Assembly (NCBI RefSeq): GCF_020531985.1
Contig: NZ_JAJAVQ010000006.1
Coordinates: 1 to 64,000, forward strand
From: Rheinheimera aquimaris
GTDB lineage: Bacteria; Pseudomonadota; Gammaproteobacteria; Enterobacterales; Alteromonadaceae
Length of the DNA: 64,000 nucleotides
Direction of reading: 5' to 3'
Under the pieces are notes generated by a model, which had not been told where the DNA came from, did no database searches, and saw only the letters and a program-made list of their open reading frames with translations. The translations under genes were made by a program, and so were the position numbers. How positions within the stretch are numbered: the stretch's first letter is position 1; the number at the start of each line of letters is the position of its first letter. Below are positions 45,964-62,894 of this stretch, piece by piece.

Positions 45964-48021
45964 TTATTCTTTTGTATCGTCAGTGACGGGTAAGGTTAGC
46001 GTAAAACAGCTGCCTTCGCCCTCAACACTGCTGACCGTCAACTGGCCATTATGCTGCTGAGCAAACTGCAACGCGTCATAAGCACCAATGCCCATTCCTG
46101 AGTTGCCCTTAGTGGTGTCAAATGGCTTGAACAGGCGTTGCTGAATAAATTGCTCGCTCATGCCGCAGCCGGTATCCGTAATATTAATCTGTAATACAGT
46201 TGAAGCGACATCAGTTTTGACATCAACGGTGATCTCTACTTTGCCCGTTTCTTCGGTAGCATGCTGGGCATTATCGATAAGGTGATAAAGCACGCTGCTA
46301 AAACGTTCTTTGTCTAAAGACAACATGCAATTGTTTAATACATGCAGGGTAGGCAGCGGTTTTCTCACCGCACACTTGTGTTTAATGACCTGCTCCAGCT
46401 CTTGCGCCACGGAAAACTTGCTGCTGCTGTTTGAGTCAGTGCGTTTATCTGTTAGTTGTGACAGCATGTTACCAAGCCGTTGCTGCATCGCCTCCAGAGT
46501 GTCGAAGCTGTCTTTGATAAACTCGGGGTTCTGCATATGTTTTTTACTGTTGTTCAGCATCAGATCTAACTGGGCTTTCACATTCTTTAAATCGTGTACG
46601 ACAAAGGCCGACATTCTGCTAAAAGCGGCAAACTGAGCATTTTCACTCAGCGCTTTACTGGCCAGCGTAAGCAATAAATAGCTGCTTATCTGTTCGGTAA
46701 TAATCATCAGATAGTCTCTGAGCTCCCAGTTCAGCTTCAGCCGCTCTGCTGTTGGGGTATTGAGAATACACAGGCCCCACAGCTGCTGCTCATCAAAAAC
46801 CGGGATAATCAGGTGGCCGTCTATTTTCAACGTATCACCTTTAAATTGCACAAAACTATCATTCTGATCAGATAAATCTGTGATCCAGCCCGGTCTGGCA
46901 TGATGCTGACAATAATGTTGCAACAGATTAAGCTCATCAGCGGTCACTGATACCCGGCCCAGGCAGGCAACAGCGTGCAGCTGTGATGGAGTAAAAGCAC
47001 GTATCAGCGCACCTCTTTGATAGCCTGTAGCGGTGAGCCAGGCGTTGAGATAGGCCTGATAGTCTACGTCCTGCTGCAGTTTCAGTGACTTCAGATACTG
47101 TGTCAGGCTTAGCCACTTGGTACGGTAATCAAATTTATTGGCGTAAAAGTTTTTCTCAATATACACCTTAAATCTGCGTCTGACTTTGCCTGATAAGGCG
47201 ACAACAGCAAACAGCAAACAGCCTGCAGCAATCAGTATCGCCTGCAGCAGGCCTGTCCAGCTAAGATCAAATAACTTAATGGAAAAACCGGCGACCGCCA
47301 GCACACTCAGGTAAATGCCAGCCAGCAACACTATAGTGCTGTTAACAACAATTTCTCTGGAAACATACACACTGATGGCCCATGAGCGGATACGGCGAAT
47401 AGCGACGACTAACAGCGGTAGTACCAGGGCTGCAATGAAACCACGGGCAGCCCAAAGTTGCGGATCTATCCGGCTGAATAGCGCTGCTTCAGCCAACAGA
47501 ATAAAGTCGAATAGAATTTGTAACCCAAGCCCAAGCACTAAAGGCTTGAACTGCCAGACAACAGGCCCGGCACGGCGATAAAGCGCTTCAAGCAGCGCTA
47601 GCTGGCCAATGCACAATAGCAAGTTGATGCTGAATATAATGTTGTTACTTACCGGAACAAAGACATTTACCAGCGCCAAGCAAAATACAATTGGAATAAC
47701 GAGCTTAACCGCACCTTGTGCCAGAAAAGACCACCAGCGTATCTCGCTGCTACTGAGACAGGAAAATAACAGCAAAAATAACAGTATGTGGCGAAGAGCC
47801 TCAACAATAACTGAGTCGGCACTGATAAAAGGCTGTGTACTGAACAGCAGATAGAACACTGCCCAGAACACCTGTACTGCAGCAAATGCCAGCAGCAGGT
47901 TTTTGGTTCTGTTGGCAGCTTTGTCTGTTAATAACAGCAGGAACAAAAAAGCGTAACAACATATTGCCAGCACGAAACCAGCTGAACTGATGGTAAAAAC
48001 CAGGCTAACGCTGTCTTGCAT
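45964..48021 (-). CDS. prsK: PEP-CTERM/exosortase-system sensor histidine kinase PrsK
   Basis: This 685-residue kinase has an N-terminal region of about eight to ten transmembrane segments (1-275), a GAF-like middle (about 300-440), a phosphoacceptor segment SAFVVHDLKNVKAQLD with His476, and an HATPase domain with ITDTGCGMSEQFIQQRLFKPF and GMGIGAYDALQFAQQH. This layout is that of PrsK, which with PrsR and RpoN controls PEP-CTERM and exopolysaccharide genes. The ATG at 48021 overlaps the protease stop (TGATG). No PrsR gene is adjacent in the window. Confidence 0.9.
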   Translation of the reverse strand: MQDSVSLVFTISSAGFVLAICCYAFLFLLLLTDKAANRTKNLLLAFAAVQVFWAVFYLLFSTQPFISADSVIVEALRHILLFLLLFSCLSSSEIRWWSFLAQGAVKLVIPIVFCLALVNVFVPVSNNIIFSINLLLCIGQLALLEALYRRAGPVVWQFKPLVLGLGLQILFDFILLAEAALFSRIDPQLWAARGFIAALVLPLLVVAIRRIRSWAISVYVSREIVVNSTIVLLAGIYLSVLAVAGFSIKLFDLSWTGLLQAILIAAGCLLFAVVALSGKVRRRFKVYIEKNFYANKFDYRTKWLSLTQYLKSLKLQQDVDYQAYLNAWLTATGYQRGALIRAFTPSQLHAVACLGRVSVTADELNLLQHYCQHHARPGWITDLSDQNDSFVQFKGDTLKIDGHLIIPVFDEQQLWGLCILNTPTAERLKLNWELRDYLMIITEQISSYLLLTLASKALSENAQFAAFSRMSAFVVHDLKNVKAQLDLMLNNSKKHMQNPEFIKDSFDTLEAMQQRLGNMLSQLTDKRTDSNSSSKFSVAQELEQVIKHKCAVRKPLPTLHVLNNCMLSLDKERFSSVLYHLIDNAQHATEETGKVEITVDVKTDVASTVLQINITDTGCGMSEQFIQQRLFKPFDTTKGNSGMGIGAYDALQFAQQHNGQLTVSSVEGEGSCFTLTLPVTDDTKE

Positions 48022-48782
48022 CAAGGGGCTGTTCCGGCATTAAGCAAGTTAAGCAGATGAACAACCGGAATAGCGTAGGTGATACCGCTGGGGTCTGACA
48101 ATACGGCCTCTTTGGTTGATTTAACGTGTACGCGATTAATAATACCGATAACAGTACCGTCAACCATAGAAAATAACGGGCTGCCGCTGTTGCCGGGGTA
48201 AGCTGTTGCGTCCAGCTGATATACCAGATAAGGCTGTTTTAATGCCCGGATAGCCTTTGTTTGCAGCTGCTGTGAGTTTTGTGCCGGAATAACAACAGGT
48301 GTGTGTGCGGCAATAATACCGGTATGCGTAGCGGGGTATAACCCCAACACTGAGGTGATAGGGTAGCCCGTCAGGCTGACAGTATTGCCCTCTGCCAGCA
48401 TTTTTTCATTCGACAATTTAAGGGCCGGCATTGTCTGCTCTATGCTAAGCACCGCAATGTCGTGCGCCAAATCTTCTGCCACATGCAAAATTTTATGCAC
48501 TTCAACTTTTTCGCCCTGACCCGACAATACAACATACTGCTCTAATGTCGAAGGATCTGTCGGCCGGGCGATAATATGATAATTCGTTGCTATCTGCTTA
48601 CCGTTACCCGTGACAAAACCTGTGCCGAGCAGGGTAATGCGCGGGGAGGCTGTCGGGTTTAATAAACCGATAGCGACGATAGAGGGCTTTATACGTGATA
48701 TATGTTCTGGCAGATTGACAGTGCCGGCTGCCAGGCTCCATTGACTCAGTAGCAGCGCTGTCAGGCAGAATAAAACTCGCAT
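48021..48782 (-). CDS. Exported trypsin-like serine protease coupled to prsK
   Basis: The 253-residue protein has a signal peptide (cleavage near SLAA-GTV) and a chymotrypsin-fold domain with the triad His69 (ATNYHII), Asp108 (AHDIAVL) and Ser199 (YPGNSGSPLF). There is no PDZ domain, so it is not a DegP-type protease. Its stop overlaps the prsK start by one base, so the two are translationally coupled and probably act together in envelope or surface-protein processing. Its target is unknown. Confidence 0.87.
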   Translation of the reverse strand: MRVLFCLTALLLSQWSLAAGTVNLPEHISRIKPSIVAIGLLNPTASPRITLLGTGFVTGNGKQIATNYHIIARPTDPSTLEQYVVLSGQGEKVEVHKILHVAEDLAHDIAVLSIEQTMPALKLSNEKMLAEGNTVSLTGYPITSVLGLYPATHTGIIAAHTPVVIPAQNSQQLQTKAIRALKQPYLVYQLDATAYPGNSGSPLFSMVDGTVIGIINRVHVKSTKEAVLSDPSGITYAIPVVHLLNLLNAGTAP

Positions 48783-54391: not shown

Positions 54392-55255
54392 ATGAAACAT
54401 TTAAAGTTCATGCAGAAGATTCCTGTGGTGAAACACCTTGTCAACAAGGCTATTTCCCGGTTGGCGAGTAATGACGCCAGTGCCATCGCCAATCACTTTT
54501 CGCAGTTTCTGAAAGTTGAGCTGGCCAATACGGACGAGCTCAAATCTGAGGTTTTCAATGTCAGGCATCAGGTTTATTGTGAGGAATTGCATTTTGAGGA
54601 CGAGCGAAATAACCGGCTGGAACAGGACGAATTTGACAGTCATTCATTTCATAGCCTGATACGTCATGTTACGACAGGCAGAGTCGCTGGTACCGTGCGG
54701 TTAATTACATCAGAACAGACCGGCGACATGCTGCCTATAGAAGTGCATTGTATGCACGCCATTACAGACCCTGATATTAAACCTTCTGCCTTTCCCAGAA
54801 GTGAAATTTGTGAAATCTCCCGACTGGCGGTGCCGGAGACATTTCGCCGGCGTAAATTCGACCAGTACAAAGGGGCAGCAACCGGTGTCATCAATGAAGT
54901 ATTCTTTTCTGAAAAAGAACTGCGCTGCTTTCCTTATATCGCGATATGTTTATATTTGTCAGCCGCTTTAATGGCACTACATAACAATAAAAAACACGTT
55001 TTTGTAATGATGGAACCCCGTTTGGCCAGAAGTCTCACTTTTGTTGGTATTGTTTTTAAACAACTCGGTGAACCGGTGGAGTACCACGGCAAGCGGGCAG
55101 CATATTATATTAACCCCGAAATGTTCAGAAAAAACCTGTCGATTGGTTATGTGAAGTTGCTCGAGTCCGTTGAGAGAGAGCTTTATCCAAATGAAAAGCC
55201 CCGTCCTATCAAGCGTAAATTTCCGAAATTAGGCTGGGGTGTTCGTTACAGTTAA
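54392..55255 (+). CDS. PEP-CTERM/exosortase-associated acyltransferase (N-acyl amino acid synthase-like)
   Basis: The 287-residue protein has the VRHQVYCEELHFEDE motif and the PRSEICEISRLAVPETFRRRK segment typical of the exosortase-system acyltransferases, which belong to the LuxI-like/FeeM group. Members of this group have been shown to make long-chain N-acyl amino acids, such as N-acyl tyrosine, and are genetically linked to PEP-CTERM loci. It is followed 19 bases later by a flavoenzyme. Substrate is inferred; N-acyl tyrosine is favoured by the neighbour. Confidence 0.87.
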   Translation: MKHLKFMQKIPVVKHLVNKAISRLASNDASAIANHFSQFLKVELANTDELKSEVFNVRHQVYCEELHFEDERNNRLEQDEFDSHSFHSLIRHVTTGRVAGTVRLITSEQTGDMLPIEVHCMHAITDPDIKPSAFPRSEICEISRLAVPETFRRRKFDQYKGAATGVINEVFFSEKELRCFPYIAICLYLSAALMALHNNKKHVFVMMEPRLARSLTFVGIVFKQLGEPVEYHGKRAAYYINPEMFRKNLSIGYVKLLESVERELYPNEKPRPIKRKFPKLGWGVRYS

Positions 55256-55274
55256 CGACAATTGAGACTTTTTT

Positions 55275-56900
55275 ATGCCCTCAAATGGCTTTAGCAGCGC
55301 ATTATCTGCGTGGAAGCAGCTACTGGCTGACGATCAGGTTATTGATGACACAGCCAGCTTAACGGATGCGCAAAAGGCGACTTTTGCATATAGCGCTAAA
55401 GTGCTGGCAATTCTTCACCCGGAAAAAGATCAGTTAGCAGAATGTCTCAGCATAGCCCGCCAGCATAAGCAGAAACTCTATACGGTGAGCTCAGGGAAAA
55501 ACTGGGGATATGGCTCGCAGTTACCGGTAAGCGGGGACAGCGTGATTCTTAACCTTGGCCGGCTTAAAAAAATAAGTAATTATGATAAGAAAAACGGTGT
55601 TGTAACCGTTGAAGCTGGTGTAACGCAAGCAGAGCTTGCGACTTTTTTAAGACAGCAAGGTGACCATCACTGGATGGATTGCACAGGCTCCAGTGCCAGC
55701 TGCAGTGTCGTGGGGAATACTGTTGAGCGGGGGTTTGGCCATACCGCTTATGGTGAACATGTTAAATATGTATGCGGCCTGGAGGTAATGTTAATTGATG
55801 GACGGGTTATCAAAACTGGTCTACATCGCTTTGGTAGCGCTAAAGCAGCCGGCGTTTATCAACCAGGTTTAGGGCCAGCGCTGGACGGCTTGTTTTTCCA
55901 GTCTAATCTGGGCGTGGTGCTGAGCATTACCCTGTGGCTAATGCCAAAACCAGAGAACTTTCTGGCATTCTATATTTCCACAGAACAAGACATGCTGGAG
56001 GATATAGTTGAAAGCCTCAGCAAATTGAAGCGGCAGGGGTATCTGACAAGCCTGCCACATATCGCTAATCCATTCAGGGTATTGCCAGGCTTGCAGCAAT
56101 ATCCTGCAGAAGATGCTGCGAGTTCCATTTATCCGCTTGCTCCTAAAAGACTGCAGCAGTTGCGTAACCATTGGCAGGTTGGCGTGTGGAATGTATCCGG
56201 TGCGTTATATGGCACCAAGGAACAGGTAAAGCTGGCAAAGTCAGCATTAAAAAAACAATTTCGCCACTTCAAAGCAACCCAGCTAAATTTCGTCAGTGAC
56301 TCTTTGTTGCAAGCTATTGAAAAATATCAATGGTTGCTATCGAAATTATTGCGTCGAGACATGGCGCGTGTGTTAGCAGTGTTAAAGCCTGTGCATCTGA
56401 TGATGAAAGGGCAGCCCAGTGATAGTTTTCTGGCTAGTGCGTATTGGCGGATGCCTGAACTACCAGAGAACGAGTACCGGCTAGATCAGGATGGCGTTGG
56501 TTTGATTTGGTGTGCCGTCGTTGCTCCGGCAGAAGGTGAACATGCGCGGCGTATTGAGAAAACAGTAACTGACACACTGACGTCATTCGATTTTGAAGGC
56601 GGTATAACCTTTACTTTGCTAAGTGAGCGCTGCCTGGATGCAGTTATCAGTATCAGCTTTAACCGACATTCAACGGATAACATTGACTGGGACCAAAAAG
56701 CAATAGCATGTCGCAGCCAGTTATATAAAAGCTTGCTGCAAGATGGGTATTTCCCATACCGGCTTGATATCAGCATGATGCAATATTTAGCAGAGCATAG
56801 CTGCCCTGAATACGAGCAGGTATTACAGGAGTTGAAACATATATTTGATGCGAATAACTTGCTGTCTCCTGGCCGCTATATTACCCATCGGAAAGTGTAG
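55275..56900 (+). CDS. FAD-linked oxidase of the VAO / 4-cresol dehydrogenase type
   Basis: This 541-residue flavoprotein has the PCMH-type FAD-binding domain: KLYTVSSGKNWGYGSQLPVS, VVTVEAGVTQAELATFL and DCTGSSASCSVVGNTVERG (about 70-170). A substrate-binding cap follows. The first motif resembles 4-cresol dehydrogenase and vanillyl-alcohol oxidase, which oxidise para-substituted phenols through a quinone methide. Because it is co-transcribed with an N-acyl amino acid synthase, oxidation of an N-acyl tyrosine (to the dehydro form) is attractive but inferred. No cytochrome partner is adjacent, so it may use oxygen or an unknown acceptor. Confidence 0.8.
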   Translation: MPSNGFSSALSAWKQLLADDQVIDDTASLTDAQKATFAYSAKVLAILHPEKDQLAECLSIARQHKQKLYTVSSGKNWGYGSQLPVSGDSVILNLGRLKKISNYDKKNGVVTVEAGVTQAELATFLRQQGDHHWMDCTGSSASCSVVGNTVERGFGHTAYGEHVKYVCGLEVMLIDGRVIKTGLHRFGSAKAAGVYQPGLGPALDGLFFQSNLGVVLSITLWLMPKPENFLAFYISTEQDMLEDIVESLSKLKRQGYLTSLPHIANPFRVLPGLQQYPAEDAASSIYPLAPKRLQQLRNHWQVGVWNVSGALYGTKEQVKLAKSALKKQFRHFKATQLNFVSDSLLQAIEKYQWLLSKLLRRDMARVLAVLKPVHLMMKGQPSDSFLASAYWRMPELPENEYRLDQDGVGLIWCAVVAPAEGEHARRIEKTVTDTLTSFDFEGGITFTLLSERCLDAVISISFNRHSTDNIDWDQKAIACRSQLYKSLLQDGYFPYRLDISMMQYLAEHSCPEYEQVLQELKHIFDANNLLSPGRYITHRKV

Positions 56901-57060: not shown

Positions 57061-57888
57061 ATGAAATCAGGATTAGGTTTTTTGGTAGCGGCACTTGGAA
57101 GTGCAGTATTATTTGCGGGTAGTGCAGCAGCTGCACCACTTAGTCTTACTTTTGAAACATCCAGCGGTTGGTTAGCTGATGGTTTAAATTATAACGGTTA
57201 TGCCCCTCAGACCCGTCATCGCAACGGCGTAGAGACAGTATATGATTGCGCAGCTGGAGCAACTAAAGCTGCAAATGGTTGTGGTCTGGAGTTTTACAAT
57301 GCTGCAGATGGCATTGCTCAGGGTTATACATCTGTAGACTGGGGTAACCCTCTGGTTGCTGGTCAGTACAGTGGTTTAGACATTGCGTCATACGATGGTG
57401 TGTTAGAAGCTGATGCAGGTTGGGTAGACACCGGTATGATCACTCACCGTAACCGCATGGTCAGAAGCGGTAGCGTAACTTTGGCCGAGTTAAACCTGTT
57501 CACAGTGTTTGATATTGTGAGCCCGTTTGTTGCTCAGGCAAGTTCAGCTTTTGGTATCAGTTTTACAGAAACAGTAAATAACCCTTATGGTTACTGTGAC
57601 GCTGATATTCAGTTCTCTGATGTACCATGTGACGACTACTTCAATATCTCTGGTATCCCTCTACCAATCGAGTTTACCTTTGAAGGTCGTAAATACGTCA
57701 TCGAGTTCCGTTTATGGGGTGATGCGGATTCAGGTTTCTTAATCGAAGACAACTTGCTGCGCACTGCTGAGAACTCTGACAATGATTTATTTGTGCAGGC
57801 TCGTTTAGTATCTGTTCCTGAGCCTGCGACTATCGCTGTGCTGGGTATGGGCCTGTTAATGCTGAGCTTACGCCGGCAGAAAGTGTAA
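57061..57888 (+). CDS. THxN-family PEP-CTERM sorting-domain protein 1
   Basis: The 275-residue exported protein has a signal peptide (cleavage near AAA-APLS), a beta-rich body with SSGWLADG and the ITHRN motif (Thr128-Asn131), paired cysteines, and a C-terminal PEP-CTERM tripartite tail: VPEPA (PEP at 253-255), a hydrophobic helix (IAVLGMGLLMLSL) and a basic end (RRQKV). An exosortase should cleave at this tail and anchor or release the protein at the surface. It is a paralog of the protein at 59274. GGAGGCG is its ribosome site. Confidence 0.92.
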   Translation: MKSGLGFLVAALGSAVLFAGSAAAAPLSLTFETSSGWLADGLNYNGYAPQTRHRNGVETVYDCAAGATKAANGCGLEFYNAADGIAQGYTSVDWGNPLVAGQYSGLDIASYDGVLEADAGWVDTGMITHRNRMVRSGSVTLAELNLFTVFDIVSPFVAQASSAFGISFTETVNNPYGYCDADIQFSDVPCDDYFNISGIPLPIEFTFEGRKYVIEFRLWGDADSGFLIEDNLLRTAENSDNDLFVQARLVSVPEPATIAVLGMGLLMLSLRRQKV

Positions 57889-57997: not shown

Positions 57998-59101
57998 ATG
58001 GAGTTGTCTGCGCTAAAAATAGAGAATGATAATAACGGTGTGCTGATGAGCTGGCATGCCGATAACCGGGCTCTTAGACTTAAGTTCAGCGGTGATGCTA
58101 TCAAATTGCCCGCAGCGGCTGATGCCGCATTTACCAGCTGTTTAATGCCAGCCATGCTGCTTGACGAAACGTTAAGTGTTGACAGCAGTTTTACCCTTAG
58201 CCGTGACCTGATTAAAAACCTGACGAAGTTCCAGCAAATTTTTTCAGGTTGGTTCGATGATCTGCAGTCTGTCAATCTGGACATAACCGAGCAGAGCTTA
58301 CATGATTCTCTATTCAAACCAGACGGTAATGCTGTGTTTTACTCTGGTGGAGTGGATGCGAGCTATTCGTTTTTTGAGCTACAGGATGATATCGATTACC
58401 TGATTTTTTGTCTTGGCCTCGATATTCAACTGCACGAGAAAGAGCGCTGTGATAAGGCCTTGGAGAGTGCCCGCAAGTTTGCTGAGCATTACGGTAAACG
58501 CCTTATCGTCATGGAAACTAACTTCAGAGAAGCCTTTCCTGAGCTATCTGCCCAAAGGTGTCAGGTCGTACTGCTGATCAGTTACAGTCTGGCTTTAGGG
58601 TTAAGATGCCTTTTTGTTCCGGCAAGCCACGATGTACTGGAGTTGGAGCCTTTTATTACGCACCCAATGACAGACCCTCTGTTAACCAATGGCGTGACTG
58701 AAGTGGTACATCACGGTATGGTCAGCCGGGTTAAAAAAACCATAGCGATTGCCCGCTCAGAGCAGGCATTAGCATTTCTGCGCGTATGTAATGCCTCAGA
58801 CCAATTTAACTGTGGTAAGTGTGAGAAATGCCTGCGTACCATGGCAACATTGGCTGCAATAGGCGGTAGCTCTCCTGCATTGCCAGCTCTGACAGATTTT
58901 AAGCAGTTACGGGAAGCAAAAATATGGACGCCGGGCAAATACCATATGTGGCATGATATTTACCTTTGCGCGAAGCAAAATAATGCACTGCGCCTGGCTG
59001 AAGCCGTTAACAAACTTTGCCGGCGATATGAATGGAAGCAACTGCTGAAATTACTCAAGGTACAAAGCCTCAAGTTGCTAAATGACATGATACAACGCTA
59101 G
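57998..59101 (+). CDS. QueC-like N-type ATP-pyrophosphatase of unknown substrate
   Basis: This 367-residue cytoplasmic protein has a P-loop-like pyrophosphatase motif FYSGGVDAS (SGGVDAS at 116-122) and a zinc ligand set Cys264, Cys272, Cys275, Cys278 in RVCNASDQFNCGKCEKC. That cysteine spacing closely follows the zinc site of QueC (7-cyano-7-deazaguanine synthase). N-type ATP-PPases adenylate a carboxyl or carbonyl and add a nitrogen or sulfur nucleophile. The N-terminal 100 residues are distinct from QueC and unrecognised. It lies between two PEP-CTERM paralogs. A role in modifying an exopolysaccharide sugar or small molecule is possible; a true queuosine role is unlikely. Confidence 0.7.
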   Translation: MELSALKIENDNNGVLMSWHADNRALRLKFSGDAIKLPAAADAAFTSCLMPAMLLDETLSVDSSFTLSRDLIKNLTKFQQIFSGWFDDLQSVNLDITEQSLHDSLFKPDGNAVFYSGGVDASYSFFELQDDIDYLIFCLGLDIQLHEKERCDKALESARKFAEHYGKRLIVMETNFREAFPELSAQRCQVVLLISYSLALGLRCLFVPASHDVLELEPFITHPMTDPLLTNGVTEVVHHGMVSRVKKTIAIARSEQALAFLRVCNASDQFNCGKCEKCLRTMATLAAIGGSSPALPALTDFKQLREAKIWTPGKYHMWHDIYLCAKQNNALRLAEAVNKLCRRYEWKQLLKLLKVQSLKLLNDMIQR

Positions 59102-59202: not shown

Positions 59203-59273
59203 CCCATTTTATCGTCCCAGTCAGCTGAGCGCAGTAGGTGGCTGGCATAGACCCAATAACAAATGGAGGCGTT

Positions 59274-60068
59274 ATGAAAAGCAAGAAAACGTTGCTCGCA
59301 GCCGTTGGAGGTTTAGCATTACTCACCGGCAGCGCGCAGGCAGCACTGATAGCTTCGTTCGATTTTGATACAGCCAGTGGTTGGTTAGCTGATGGTTCAG
59401 CACAAACCCGTAACTCAGCTGATAACTCGATTATTAATTGCGCGGCGGGTGCTCTGCCAGGCACTAATGGTTGCGGATTAACTTTCTCTGGAGCGCAGGA
59501 AGTTACAGATGGTTATAACACTGTAGACTGGTTTAGTAATGGCGGTGTCGGGCCAAGCGGTTTGGATATCGTATCATTATCCGGCACCTTAATTACCGGC
59601 GGTGCGTGGGTCGACACAGGTATTATTACCCACAGGAACTTTATATTACCGTCTCCGGCTACTACGCTGCACACTTTGGATCTGATGTCTGAATTTAGCA
59701 TTACGTCGCCACTGTTGCTTGGTCCGGCGTCTGATACTTTCGACATTAGTTTTGTTGAAACACCAAACCAGGGTGGTTGCCCACCACCAAATCCACTTGG
59801 TTCCTCTTGTGACGATGCATTCACCATTGATGGCTTACCTGAAGCTATCGTATTCGAAATTGATGGCATTACCTATACCATCGAGTTTCGTCTGTTCGGC
59901 GGTGACGGATTTATCGTTGCAGATAATACGTTATATACCAGAGAGGATGAAGAAAATACCTTATTTGTGCAGGCCCGAGTTACTGCACGTCAGGTACCAG
60001 AGCCTGCTACTTTGGGTATTCTGGGGTTAGGTTTGCTGCTGTTAAATCGTCGTAAACTGATGAAGTAG
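59274..60068 (+). CDS. THxN-family PEP-CTERM sorting-domain protein 2
   Basis: The 264-residue exported protein has a signal peptide (cleavage near AQA-ALIA), the SGWLADG and ITHRN motifs (Thr119-Asn122) shared with the first paralog, and a PEP-CTERM tail: VPEPA (PEP at 242-244), a hydrophobic helix (LGILGLGLLLL) and a basic end (NRRKLMK). Both proteins also share CDDxF, EFRL and LFVQAR near the C-terminus. The ATG at 59274 after GGAGGCG is preferred to 59238. Confidence 0.92.
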   Translation: MKSKKTLLAAVGGLALLTGSAQAALIASFDFDTASGWLADGSAQTRNSADNSIINCAAGALPGTNGCGLTFSGAQEVTDGYNTVDWFSNGGVGPSGLDIVSLSGTLITGGAWVDTGIITHRNFILPSPATTLHTLDLMSEFSITSPLLLGPASDTFDISFVETPNQGGCPPPNPLGSSCDDAFTIDGLPEAIVFEIDGITYTIEFRLFGGDGFIVADNTLYTREDEENTLFVQARVTARQVPEPATLGILGLGLLLLNRRKLMK

Positions 60069-60128: not shown

Positions 60129-62894
60129 TTAATCTTCCAATCCCAGCTCAGCCATTAAAGCTTTGGCCTGAGCTGCTACTTCCTGATTGTCTGCAAGCTG
60201 CTCTAATACTGACCGGGCTTTTTCCTTGCTTCCCGTTTTTACCAATGCCTCGGCATAATGTAATTGCACTTGTGACGCATCAGGTCTGACGTTTAGCGAC
60301 GCTTCAAACATTTCTTTTGCCTTTGTTGCATCACCTGTAGCCAATAAAACTTTGCCGTAAGTGTCCAGGATGTCCGGATGCTTCGGCTGTAGCTCGTGTG
60401 CTTTTTTAGCATGTGTCAGCGCCACAGAGAGATTGCCTTTTTCCAGCATTAACCAAGCCAGATTGTTAAGTGCCAGCACATTATCGGGTTGCTCCTGAAG
60501 CATGGTCTGATAAGTTTGAACCGCCCGATCAGCATCAGTGTTTAATGACAGCTGCGCCAGCATCGCCTGTATTGTCGGCGTACTGCCTTGTGTTGCTATA
60601 TGTTTCTCCAATAATGCAATGCCTTTGTCGGTTGATCCGAGCCTGTTATGTAATTCGGCAAGAAGTAAGGCGGTCTTGACGTTGGCTTGCTTGGCGTAGC
60701 TTTGAGACAATGTCTGTACAGCGTCGGAATACTTTTGTTCTTTTGTCAGGGCTTTGCCAACGAAGAACTGTGTTTCTGGCTTCTGTTGTATATCATCCGG
60801 TAACGCGCGCACGAACTCCAATAACTGTTGACTGCGCTCAGCCTCATCAAGAATTTGCAGTTTTATGTTGATAAAGCGGGTATGCCCCGGCTGAGCAGCC
60901 AATAGTTGCTCAACAAGTTTGAGTGCACCTATATAATCTTTGTTAGCGTATAGCGCCTGCATATAGGCTTGGGTAGCCATATTAGATGCGGGCTGTAGGG
61001 TGTGCCAGCTCTGGGCGCTTTGCAGCGCTTGTGCTGGTGCGTTTAATCTTAGCTGTGTATCAATCAGGTAGGCCCAATGCATAGGCAGCCATTCACGTTG
61101 CTCGGTTTTGATGCTATTTAGTAGCTCCAGTGCCTCATTATAGGCGCCATCGTTATGCTTAAAGCTAGCTAGCATCAACGTCAGATTATAGTCCTGAGGA
61201 GCTGCTTTTTGTGCTTTAGTCAGGCGCTGTAATGCATCTGTTTTATCACCTGTGCCGTGGCTGAGCGCTATATATTGTTCAAGCGCCTGAATATTTTGTG
61301 GCTCATCGTCCAGTAACGCCTGAAAACGTTGTTTTGCCAGCGTCGTATCGCCCTTAGCGGCTGCCAAAGAGGCATTTAGCAGACGAGCCAGACTGTTCTT
61401 AGGCTCCTTTGTTAATACCAGTTCTATATGTTCAGCAGCGATGTCTGGCTGTTCACTGACCAAAGCAACATAAGCTTTCATATTATGGCCGGCGTTGCTT
61501 CGCTCAGCACTGGCAATCCATTCGTCGGCCAAAGCCATAGCTTTATCGTATTCCTGCTGCCTGATGTAAGCGGTTAGCAGTAACACACGGGCCTGATCGG
61601 CTGCCGGGTCTAATTGCAAAGCTTGTTCCAGCGAACGTATCGCAGTATCACGCTGACCGGGCATTTTAAGTTGTATAGCGCCCAGCGTTAGTAACTCCCT
61701 TGCCGAAAAAGGCTCGTCTGATTTGTACTGTGCCAATAGGTTTTGAGCGGCTTCAGTGCTGCCTTGTTTGGTCAACTCAAACGCTGTCGCTGCCAGTAGC
61801 TGGATGTCAGATTGTTGCAACTCTTTTCCTGACAACAGTTGTTGTGCTACTTCCGTATTACCAGCTTTTAGCATCAGTTGGGCGTAAAGCATTTCAGCTT
61901 CAGGGTAGTGTTTCAGAATGTCTTTAATGACTTCGAGGTGGCTTAAGGCGACATTTTCTAACTTCAGGTTAACTGCGATCAATGCCGCTAGAATGCGCGC
62001 TTGTGCCGAGTTAAATCCGCCGCCTATCGCTGTATCTATGTTTATTCTTGCTTGTTCAAAGTCTTTTTTATCGTAAGCAATAATAGCGGCGAAATAATTT
62101 GCCAACGGCTGCTGCGGTACTTTCTTCAGCAATGGCTGCAGTATTGCATCTGCCAGCTGTAGCTGCTCTGTTTTTACGTAAGACTGCGCCAGTAACAATT
62201 GCGGTAATAAATGATAAGGGTTCTGTGCCACATACGCTTTTAGCAGGTTGATCGCTGTGGTTGTGTCGTTCTCTGCAAGGGCAATCTTACTTCTGACATA
62301 CAGTGACTGGTGATACAGTGCAGAAGACTCTGGAATTTGCATGAGCTTCTGCTTCACATCAGCAAGATCTGACTTCGCCAGTGCCTGAAAAGCCGCCGCA
62401 AAGTCTGCTACATCCGTCTGGCTGGACGCAGAAAGCTGCTTAAATAAAGCCTCAGCATTTTCAGTACCACCCAGTTCGGCTTCTGCCAGCGCTTTAAACG
62501 TTAGCAGATAATCCTGTTCAGGTTGAGCGTAAGCGGAAGTATCTTCCAGCAATGTTAAGATATCGCTGTAGTTACCGTTCAGGTACAACACCTTGACATA
62601 ATCCTGAACGAAGGCGGAGTTATCTGCACTGTACTGATCTGCACGCTGATATTCTTTTACCGCGTCATCTAATGCCCCCACTTTTACATACAGCTGCGCC
62701 AGAGCCAGACGGTAGTCAGCCCGTTCCGGGTCTTTTTGCAAGGCAGACTTCAGCTCGACCAGTGCACTGTTGAACTGGTCGTTTGCCAGAAAAGTCTGGG
62801 CTGCTTCAAAGTGCTCATCGCTACTTTTCTGGCCACATGCGGTAAGCGTCAAACCTATAATGACTGCCGTACTGACTCTGGTGAAGCTTTTCAT
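60129..62894 (-). CDS. prsT: PEP-CTERM-system TPR-repeat lipoprotein PrsT
   Basis: The 921-residue lipoprotein starts MKSFTRVSTAVIIGLTLTAC (lipobox LTAC, Cys20) and then consists almost wholly of tetratricopeptide repeats, for example FNSALVELKSALQKDPERADY and KAHELQPKHPDILDTYGKVL. This size, repeat content and lipid anchor fit PrsT, a marker of exosortase/PEP-CTERM exopolysaccharide loci. It probably scaffolds export at the outer membrane. It starts 24 bases after wecC on the same strand. Confidence 0.9.
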   Translation of the reverse strand: MKSFTRVSTAVIIGLTLTACGQKSSDEHFEAAQTFLANDQFNSALVELKSALQKDPERADYRLALAQLYVKVGALDDAVKEYQRADQYSADNSAFVQDYVKVLYLNGNYSDILTLLEDTSAYAQPEQDYLLTFKALAEAELGGTENAEALFKQLSASSQTDVADFAAAFQALAKSDLADVKQKLMQIPESSALYHQSLYVRSKIALAENDTTTAINLLKAYVAQNPYHLLPQLLLAQSYVKTEQLQLADAILQPLLKKVPQQPLANYFAAIIAYDKKDFEQARINIDTAIGGGFNSAQARILAALIAVNLKLENVALSHLEVIKDILKHYPEAEMLYAQLMLKAGNTEVAQQLLSGKELQQSDIQLLAATAFELTKQGSTEAAQNLLAQYKSDEPFSARELLTLGAIQLKMPGQRDTAIRSLEQALQLDPAADQARVLLLTAYIRQQEYDKAMALADEWIASAERSNAGHNMKAYVALVSEQPDIAAEHIELVLTKEPKNSLARLLNASLAAAKGDTTLAKQRFQALLDDEPQNIQALEQYIALSHGTGDKTDALQRLTKAQKAAPQDYNLTLMLASFKHNDGAYNEALELLNSIKTEQREWLPMHWAYLIDTQLRLNAPAQALQSAQSWHTLQPASNMATQAYMQALYANKDYIGALKLVEQLLAAQPGHTRFINIKLQILDEAERSQQLLEFVRALPDDIQQKPETQFFVGKALTKEQKYSDAVQTLSQSYAKQANVKTALLLAELHNRLGSTDKGIALLEKHIATQGSTPTIQAMLAQLSLNTDADRAVQTYQTMLQEQPDNVLALNNLAWLMLEKGNLSVALTHAKKAHELQPKHPDILDTYGKVLLATGDATKAKEMFEASLNVRPDASQVQLHYAEALVKTGSKEKARSVLEQLADNQEVAAQAKALMAELGLED

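Follow-up and report, generated by a model that had tools for sequence, protein, structure and literature searches.

Background

The described systems closest to the gene pair considered here combine an N-acyl amino acid synthase (NAS) with partner enzymes that process its product further. The pair lies in a 64,000-nucleotide stretch of the genome of Rheinheimera aquimaris (class Gammaproteobacteria; positions 1 to 64,000 of contig NZ_JAJAVQ010000006.1, assembly GCF_020531985.1), which as a whole is referred to as the window, and consists of an exosortase-associated NAS (gene 1) followed by a flavoenzyme of the vanillyl alcohol oxidase (VAO)/4-cresol dehydrogenase (PCMH) type (gene 2). An exosortase-linked N-acyl amino acid can probably be completed in two interchangeable ways, one by this pair and the other with a ThiF-type cyclase.

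Acyl-oxazolone pathways have been described as OxzAB in Pseudoalteromonas rubra, TyzACB, and TrzAS in M. tuberculosis (PMC12856293, PMC10404671). Like the window, these pathways have a NAS and then partner enzymes that complete the N-acyl amino acid, and partners of the ThiF type and ThiF-oxidase fusions occupy the corresponding position next to NAS genes within the window's family (Alteromonadaceae), whereas in the window genome no ThiF and no oxidase were found and a single VAO-type flavoenzyme is present instead. The clusters for N-acyl dehydrotyrosines (thalassotalic acids, kyonggic acids, and stieleriacines), two of the three from Pseudomonadota, share with the window a NAS-based N-acyl tyrosine metabolism but carry ThiF together with a nitroreductase (PMC12479983), neither of which was found in the window.

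The chemistry that we propose for the pair would have its nearest parallels in two systems that oxidize N-acyl tyrosine with the help of flavin adenine dinucleotide (FAD) through a quinone methide and with loss of CO2. One is the chondrochloren enzyme, a FAD-dependent oxidative decarboxylase of acyl-tyrosine (PMC3039461), and the other is FeeM/FeeG from soil environmental DNA, in which FeeM is a NAS and FeeG oxidatively decarboxylates N-acyl tyrosines (PMC8762209). These enzymes may be likened to gene 2 by their described chemistry; the context of PEP-CTERM genes and the swapping with ThiF are findings of the present analysis. We found no publication joining VAO/4-cresol dehydrogenase with N-acyl tyrosine or with exosortases, which is weak evidence of absence as most subscription journals lay outside the search. 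The chemistry has precedent; within this incomplete coverage of the literature, a dedicated, repeatedly exchanged PEP-CTERM module was not found in print.

Identity and conservation of the gene pair

Both genes proved to be what the earlier note, made from the DNA letters alone, had taken them for, and both reading frames begin and end exactly where it had placed them. Gene 1, described there as an exosortase-associated acyltransferase related to FeeM, scored 241.4 bits against TIGR03694 (PEP-CTERM/exosortase system-associated acyltransferase; curated cut-off 111.95) and 29.0 bits against the Pfam FeeM family PF21926 (cut-off 27), and it also exceeded the cut-off of PF13444. Gene 2 carries the Pfam domain FAD_binding_4 (PF01565). 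Its best solved relatives in a single-sequence search were 4-phenol oxidases/dehydrogenases (9fge, 2.3e-55; 1wve, 4-cresol dehydrogenase, 7.3e-55), and a profile built from 31 relatives gave 1.2e-94. Homology to the VAO/PCMH branch of 4-phenol oxidases/dehydrogenases lies well above that to other FAD_binding_4 enzymes; an identity as a lactate, glycolate, or sugar oxidase was rejected by the scores, lactate/hydroxyglutarate/glycolate enzymes giving only 1.9e-10 (the best outside the branch) to 5.9e-06. In NCBIfam, gene 2 had only GlcD and lactone-oxidase matches, all under cut-off, and its nearest named relative is a 71% identical protein of Rheinheimera baltica (locus L032). The gap between the two genes measures 19 bp and contains no terminator-like site.

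The two genes, treated as one module in the earlier note, keep company across the window's family. In a sample of 147 genomes, with gene 2 relatives counted at E <= 1e-20 and NAS at the TIGR03694 cut-off, 36 have a gene 2 relative and 106 have NAS. By coordinates, the distance to NAS is at most 10 kb for 32 of the 36 flavoenzyme genes and at most 1 kb for 21 of them, an adjacency that exceeds chance. The four exceptions to the 10-kb linkage are G019, with NAS 392 kb away, G080 and G040, which have no NAS over the cut-off and in which the contig bearing the flavoenzyme measures 3.3 and 17.5 kb, respectively, and G009, in which the flavoenzyme match is partial and weak (E 3.6e-21). A NAS open reading frame was present within 1.5 kb of the flavoenzyme in 20 of 30 genome loci and also in R. 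baltica. Beyond the family, the specific flavoenzyme type (E < 1e-150) was found in 13 of 397 genomes sampled from the phylum, all of the window's class; 12 of the 13 have NAS over the cut-off, in 11 of them no more than 10 kb away and in three cases downstream in flipped order. Nine further phylum genomes possess generic VAO-type enzymes only (E 1e-51 to 1e-79) and all lack NAS over the cut-off.

Mutual exclusion and exchange of partner enzymes

The flavoenzyme occupies the slot that in other loci belongs to a ThiF-type cyclase, with or without an accompanying nitroreductase-like oxidase, and excludes ThiF. Additional NAS loci comprised 80 from family genomes, mostly picked for absence of the flavoenzyme, and 15 extra stretches. 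The usual gene after NAS in loci without the flavoenzyme encodes a ThiF/MoeB-like adenylyltransferase of about 288 amino acids (NF006077, E 1e-116), and at some of the ThiF loci a nitroreductase-like flavin oxidase is encoded next to the ThiF gene or fused to it. Among the 106 NAS-positive genomes, 31 have only the flavoenzyme, 69 only ThiF, three both, and three neither (G076, G116, and G136), and either partner is present in just two of the 41 genomes without NAS over the cut-off (G040 and G080). Fisher's exact test gives a p of 6e-20 for this genome-level exclusion, which is no true probability because the genomes are related. Both partners co-occur in G009 (with the weak partial flavoenzyme match), in G043, and in G129, where each of two NAS genes lies beside one of the partners, as well as in G040 outside the NAS-positive set.

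The same separation is seen for individual genes. The 126 NAS genes in the examined loci include 38 with the flavoenzyme, 56 with ThiF, 18 with ThiF plus oxidase, 14 with none of these, and not a single mixed case. ThiF or the oxidase was present in 0 of 38 flavoenzyme loci versus ThiF in 74 of the 88 other NAS cases, and this contrast is the informative half of the data because most ThiF loci were chosen from flavoenzyme-free genomes. Relics of the absent partner were found neither in the window nor in 36 flavoenzyme loci (ThiF at E <= 0.01) or 69 ThiF loci. The window's own genome has no ThiF of this type (NF006077, E <= 1e-40), and a search with one query at E <= 1e-12, which missed the known fusion in G017, returned no nitroreductase-like oxidase from this genome; no relic of the oxidase was found in the window.

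A nitroreductase-like oxidase is encoded nearby in 18 of the 74 ThiF-bearing NAS cases, divergent oxidase domains included. In the other 56 (among loci L081-L160), unlike in the described oxazolone modules, none was found in the examined stretch, although it may lie elsewhere in those genomes, for which the genome-wide search consisted of the single query that missed at least the G017 fusion and found the oxidase in 14 of 147 genomes. Three loci (L146, L148, and L149) contain two or three consecutive NAS genes but a single ThiF gene.

The flavoenzyme and ThiF have been exchanged repeatedly, also within genera, while NAS stayed. On a quick NAS tree of 124 proteins with long branches and many open forks, parsimony counts 18 changes of the flavoenzyme/ThiF label, and at least 8 changes of the flavoenzyme label are required when only branches with strong support are counted; the tree labels use an earlier oxidase count (14/74), which leaves the comparison of flavoenzyme and ThiF unaffected. 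Both kinds of partner occur within at least 9 genera of the sample. The order of the genes flanking NAS is common to swapped loci (L063 and L150, L071 and L115, L070 and L127), and the NAS proteins of G069, where the flavoenzyme gene lies at a distance of 3.3 kb, and of G130 from the same genus, where the partner is ThiF, share 96% identity. The window's genus alone holds three kinds of partner, namely a window-type flavoenzyme (G000 and G097), a main-type flavoenzyme (G126 and G146), and a ThiF-oxidase fusion (G017 and G063). That the slot beside the synthase is filled by two unrelated chemistries and exchanged even within a genus indicates that a particular step after NAS is important to these cells, and closely matched natural pairs, such as G069 and G130, are available for finding it.

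Active site of the flavoenzyme

The active-site alignment contained 41 rows of the specific type, four of which (L039, L045, L170, and L175) have no NAS in the same stretch, and 17 generic VAO-type rows. Gene 2 resembles 4-cresol dehydrogenase, eugenol oxidase, and vanillyl alcohol oxidase in homology over most of its length and in the phenolate triad. Tyr79 is conserved throughout the 40 rows that are not gapped at this position, and Tyr495 and Arg496 are each kept in 41 of 41; we take Tyr, Tyr, and Arg at these aligned positions to be the phenolate-binding residues of the VAO/PCMH branch. The first Tyr is lost in 3 of 17 generic rows, and its conservation in the specific type is therefore not due to the fold alone. 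The kept triad points to a para-phenol as the substrate, in line with the earlier note. In a VAO-type group formed by L053, L054, and L176, one of them on a Candidatus Megaera plasmid, the first phenol-binding Tyr is replaced by Leu or Met, so that the substrate there may be non-phenolic.

At several other positions gene 2 differs from 4-cresol dehydrogenase, eugenol oxidase, vanillyl alcohol oxidase, and their relatives. Its flavin-side pair, Gly138 (41/41 specific rows) followed by Ala139 (33) or Ser139 (8), matches neither the Leu plus acid of the oxidases nor the Pro or Ile plus small residue of the dehydrogenases as given in PMC7617285. Leu410 (41/41) replaces the FAD-linking His of the oxidases, which is present in 10 of 17 generic rows, yet membership in the branch stands because a member without covalently bound FAD is known (PMC7617285). 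No Tyr occurs in the 41 rows at position 402, aligned to the FAD-linking Tyr of the dehydrogenase type, within a poorly aligning loop (gapped in 13 of 17 generic rows) where the window has the adjacent Tyr401. Position 445 is Thr or Ser in all 41 specific rows and Glu in three 4-cresol-dehydrogenase-like rows. The acids at the aligned flavin-side position (Asp/Glu) and at the Glu position of 4-cresol dehydrogenase presumably function in hydroxylation or water activation, and the lack of an acid at positions 138 and 445 would argue against water addition. A further difference lies in the surroundings: neither a cytochrome c nor an aldehyde dehydrogenase gene is present among the 12 window neighbours scanned, and a cytochrome c gene adjoins the comparator VAO-type genes L177 and L178. 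A divergent flavoenzyme of G030, encoded in locus L066 between two PrsT-like genes and 4.3 kb from NAS, forms a long separate branch with L165.

Proposed pathway and alternative explanations

We consider it moderately likely that the pair is a two-enzyme lipid-tailoring module in which N-acyl tyrosine made by NAS would be oxidized by the flavoenzyme via a quinone methide, with loss of CO2. Judging from its family, NAS would N-acylate an amino acid, most likely tyrosine, with a long chain. The flavoenzyme, by its homology and kept residues, would hold the phenolate by Tyr79, Tyr495, and Arg496 and take a hydride from the benzylic carbon to yield a para-quinone methide, the formation of which is standard chemistry of the VAO/PCMH branch (PMC7617285). 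A tyrosine quinone methide is described to lose CO2 when its carboxyl is free and to give dehydrotyrosine when it is blocked (PMC3039461). With a free carboxylate, the intermediate would thus most likely lose CO2 to form N-acyl-4-hydroxystyrylamine, a neutral enamide, which we favour because of the chondrochloren and FeeG precedent (PMC3039461, PMC8762209). The exchange data lean toward CO2 loss too: that no oxidase was found near ThiF in most ThiF-bearing cases suggests that the flavoenzyme usually replaces ThiF, a carboxylate-consuming enzyme, and not a desaturase. We interpret the two partners as completing one and the same N-acyl amino acid along different chemical routes, with ThiF spending adenosine triphosphate on the carboxyl and the flavoenzyme working via the para-phenol, where it would need neither ThiF nor the nitroreductase-like oxidase. 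An enzyme acting in this way would provide an alternative to the ThiF/oxidase route with one enzyme in place of two, and the decarboxylation pathway predicts a neutral N-acyl enamide lipid of exact mass that is searchable in a wild-type extract.

Several observations weigh against this pathway or against a strict coupling of the two genes. Tyrosine as the amino acid used by NAS is an assumption, and no NAS alignment column separates the two partner types, the largest difference in residue frequency being 0.35. Fifteen of the 36 family flavoenzyme genes lie more than 1 kb from NAS or are unlinked, 10 of the 30 flavoenzyme loci have no NAS within 1.5 kb, and the phylum genome G420 has the specific flavoenzyme with NAS over the cut-off absent. 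Both partner types are present in G040 and also in G043, which has a single NAS over the cut-off and carries ThiF on another contig. The tree neither supports nor rejects a single clade for all specific flavoenzymes, so two recruitments are possible, and the fold prediction for gene 2 gave an unusable model, at a mean predicted local distance difference test score of 38.5, with an alignment of the window and L032 proteins only.

The main alternative at the last step would be loss of the alpha-proton, by which the flavoenzyme would desaturate N-acyl tyrosine to N-acyl dehydrotyrosine and replace the route through ThiF and nitroreductase to thalassotalic-acid-like compounds. This product had been proposed in the earlier note; the para-phenol part of that proposal is supported by the triad, whereas dehydrotyrosine is not the product favoured by the precedent cited above. 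We regard it as a tentative possibility, as N-acyl dehydrotyrosines are known from marine bacteria, where they are tied to NAS, ThiF, and nitroreductase (PMC12479983), as the corresponding ThiF plus oxidase module does occur in 18 of the 74 ThiF-bearing NAS cases, and as Gly138 and Thr/Ser445, neither of them an acid, would argue against hydroxylation, given the presumed roles of the acids. The known producers, however, carry ThiF and the nitroreductase (PMC12479983), neither of which was found here, the described fate of a quinone methide whose carboxyl is free is CO2 loss (PMC3039461), and the 56 of 74 ThiF cases without an oxidase found nearby speak for the flavoenzyme standing in for ThiF and not for a desaturase.

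It is unlikely that the substrate of the flavoenzyme is unrelated to the NAS product, for instance an envelope phenol or a catabolic 4-alkylphenol, and that the two genes are linked only by sharing a PEP-CTERM locus. Some flavoenzyme copies do lie 1-9 kb from NAS, the L066 gene sits between PrsT-like genes, and plasmid-borne generic relatives look catabolic, with cytochrome c or aldehyde dehydrogenase genes. Such a substrate is opposed by the finding that the flavoenzyme and ThiF, known relatives of which act on the NAS product (PMC12856293), exclude each other, as well as by the lack of NAS over the cut-off in the genomes with generic VAO-type enzymes (0/9) and the absence of cytochrome c and aldehyde dehydrogenase genes from the 12 scanned neighbours; a role of gene 2 in generic lignin or cresol catabolism is disfavoured by the same evidence. 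Trapping of the quinone methide by water or by the amide oxygen, to give beta-hydroxy-N-acyl tyrosine or an oxazoline, is very improbable, as neither of the two aligned positions, flavin-side and presumably water-activating, carries an acid, even though 4-cresol dehydrogenase-type enzymes hydrate the quinone methide in their general scheme (PMC7617285).

A broader and rather doubtful idea is that the partner slot of NAS serves a general "capping" step of PEP-CTERM systems, in which ThiF cyclization or flavin-driven quinone-methide chemistry would convert an N-acyl amino acid, which is anionic, to a lipid that is neutral or electrophilic and serves at the cell surface. Such a lipid could be an anchor or a reactive group for exosortase-processed proteins or exopolysaccharide, and the chemistry would be free to change provided that the carboxylate is dealt with.

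Genomic surroundings

NAS sits among genes of the PEP-CTERM system, as the earlier note had assumed, with two THxN family PEP-CTERM proteins, PrsT, and PrsK encoded in the window (Table 1). Craig et al. reportedly linked NAS genes to the exosortase system in 2011. The tie of the NAS-flavoenzyme pair to PEP-CTERM is genomic only.

Table 1. Positions of the genes and residues discussed (in the window unless another locus is named)
Feature	Position	Strand	Basis
Gene 1, exosortase-associated NAS, 287 amino acids, ATG start	54392..55255	+	TIGR03694, PF13444, PF21926
Gene 2, VAO/4-cresol-dehydrogenase-type flavoenzyme, 541 amino acids, ATG start; conserved NAS partner	55275..56900	+	PF01565, 1wve and profile matches, pairing
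Tyr79 codon, predicted phenolate-binding Tyr	55509..55511	+	alignment to 4-cresol dehydrogenase
Tyr495-Arg496 codons, predicted phenolate-binding pair	56757..56762	+	alignment
THxN family PEP-CTERM protein	57061..57888	+	NF038125, 120.3 bits (cut-off 85)
Unknown-family protein between both PEP-CTERM genes	57998..59101	+	no NCBIfam match; weak DUF6395 (Pfam), E 3.2e-4, below cut-off
Unknown-family gene between THxN paralogues, other loci	L032 4069-5193; L061 4605-5717		
Second THxN family PEP-CTERM protein	59238..60068	+	NF038125, 162.5 bits (cut-off 85)
XrtA/PEP-CTERM system TPR protein PrsT	60129..62894	-	TIGR02917, 482.5 bits (cut-off 312.2)
XrtA/PEP-CTERM system histidine kinase PrsK	45964..48024	-	TIGR02916, 524.6 bits (cut-off 300)
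Divergent HtrA-like protease	48021-48782		
Second NAS of the window's genome	L080 8146-8955 (C11:304217-304864)		over NAS cut-off
Divergent flavoenzyme of G030	L066 8896-10530		

The window's genome encodes a second NAS over the cut-off, with an adjoining MarR-family gene and no ThiF, oxidase, or flavoenzyme within the 17 kb examined. The two THxN PEP-CTERM paralogues that directly follow the NAS-flavoenzyme pair flank a gene of unknown family, and the same order occurs in three loci, the window included. Two other genes are frequent neighbours of NAS: that for a divergent HtrA-like protease, found whichever partner is present and with relatives in 76 loci, and a patatin-like gene, found in 55 loci.

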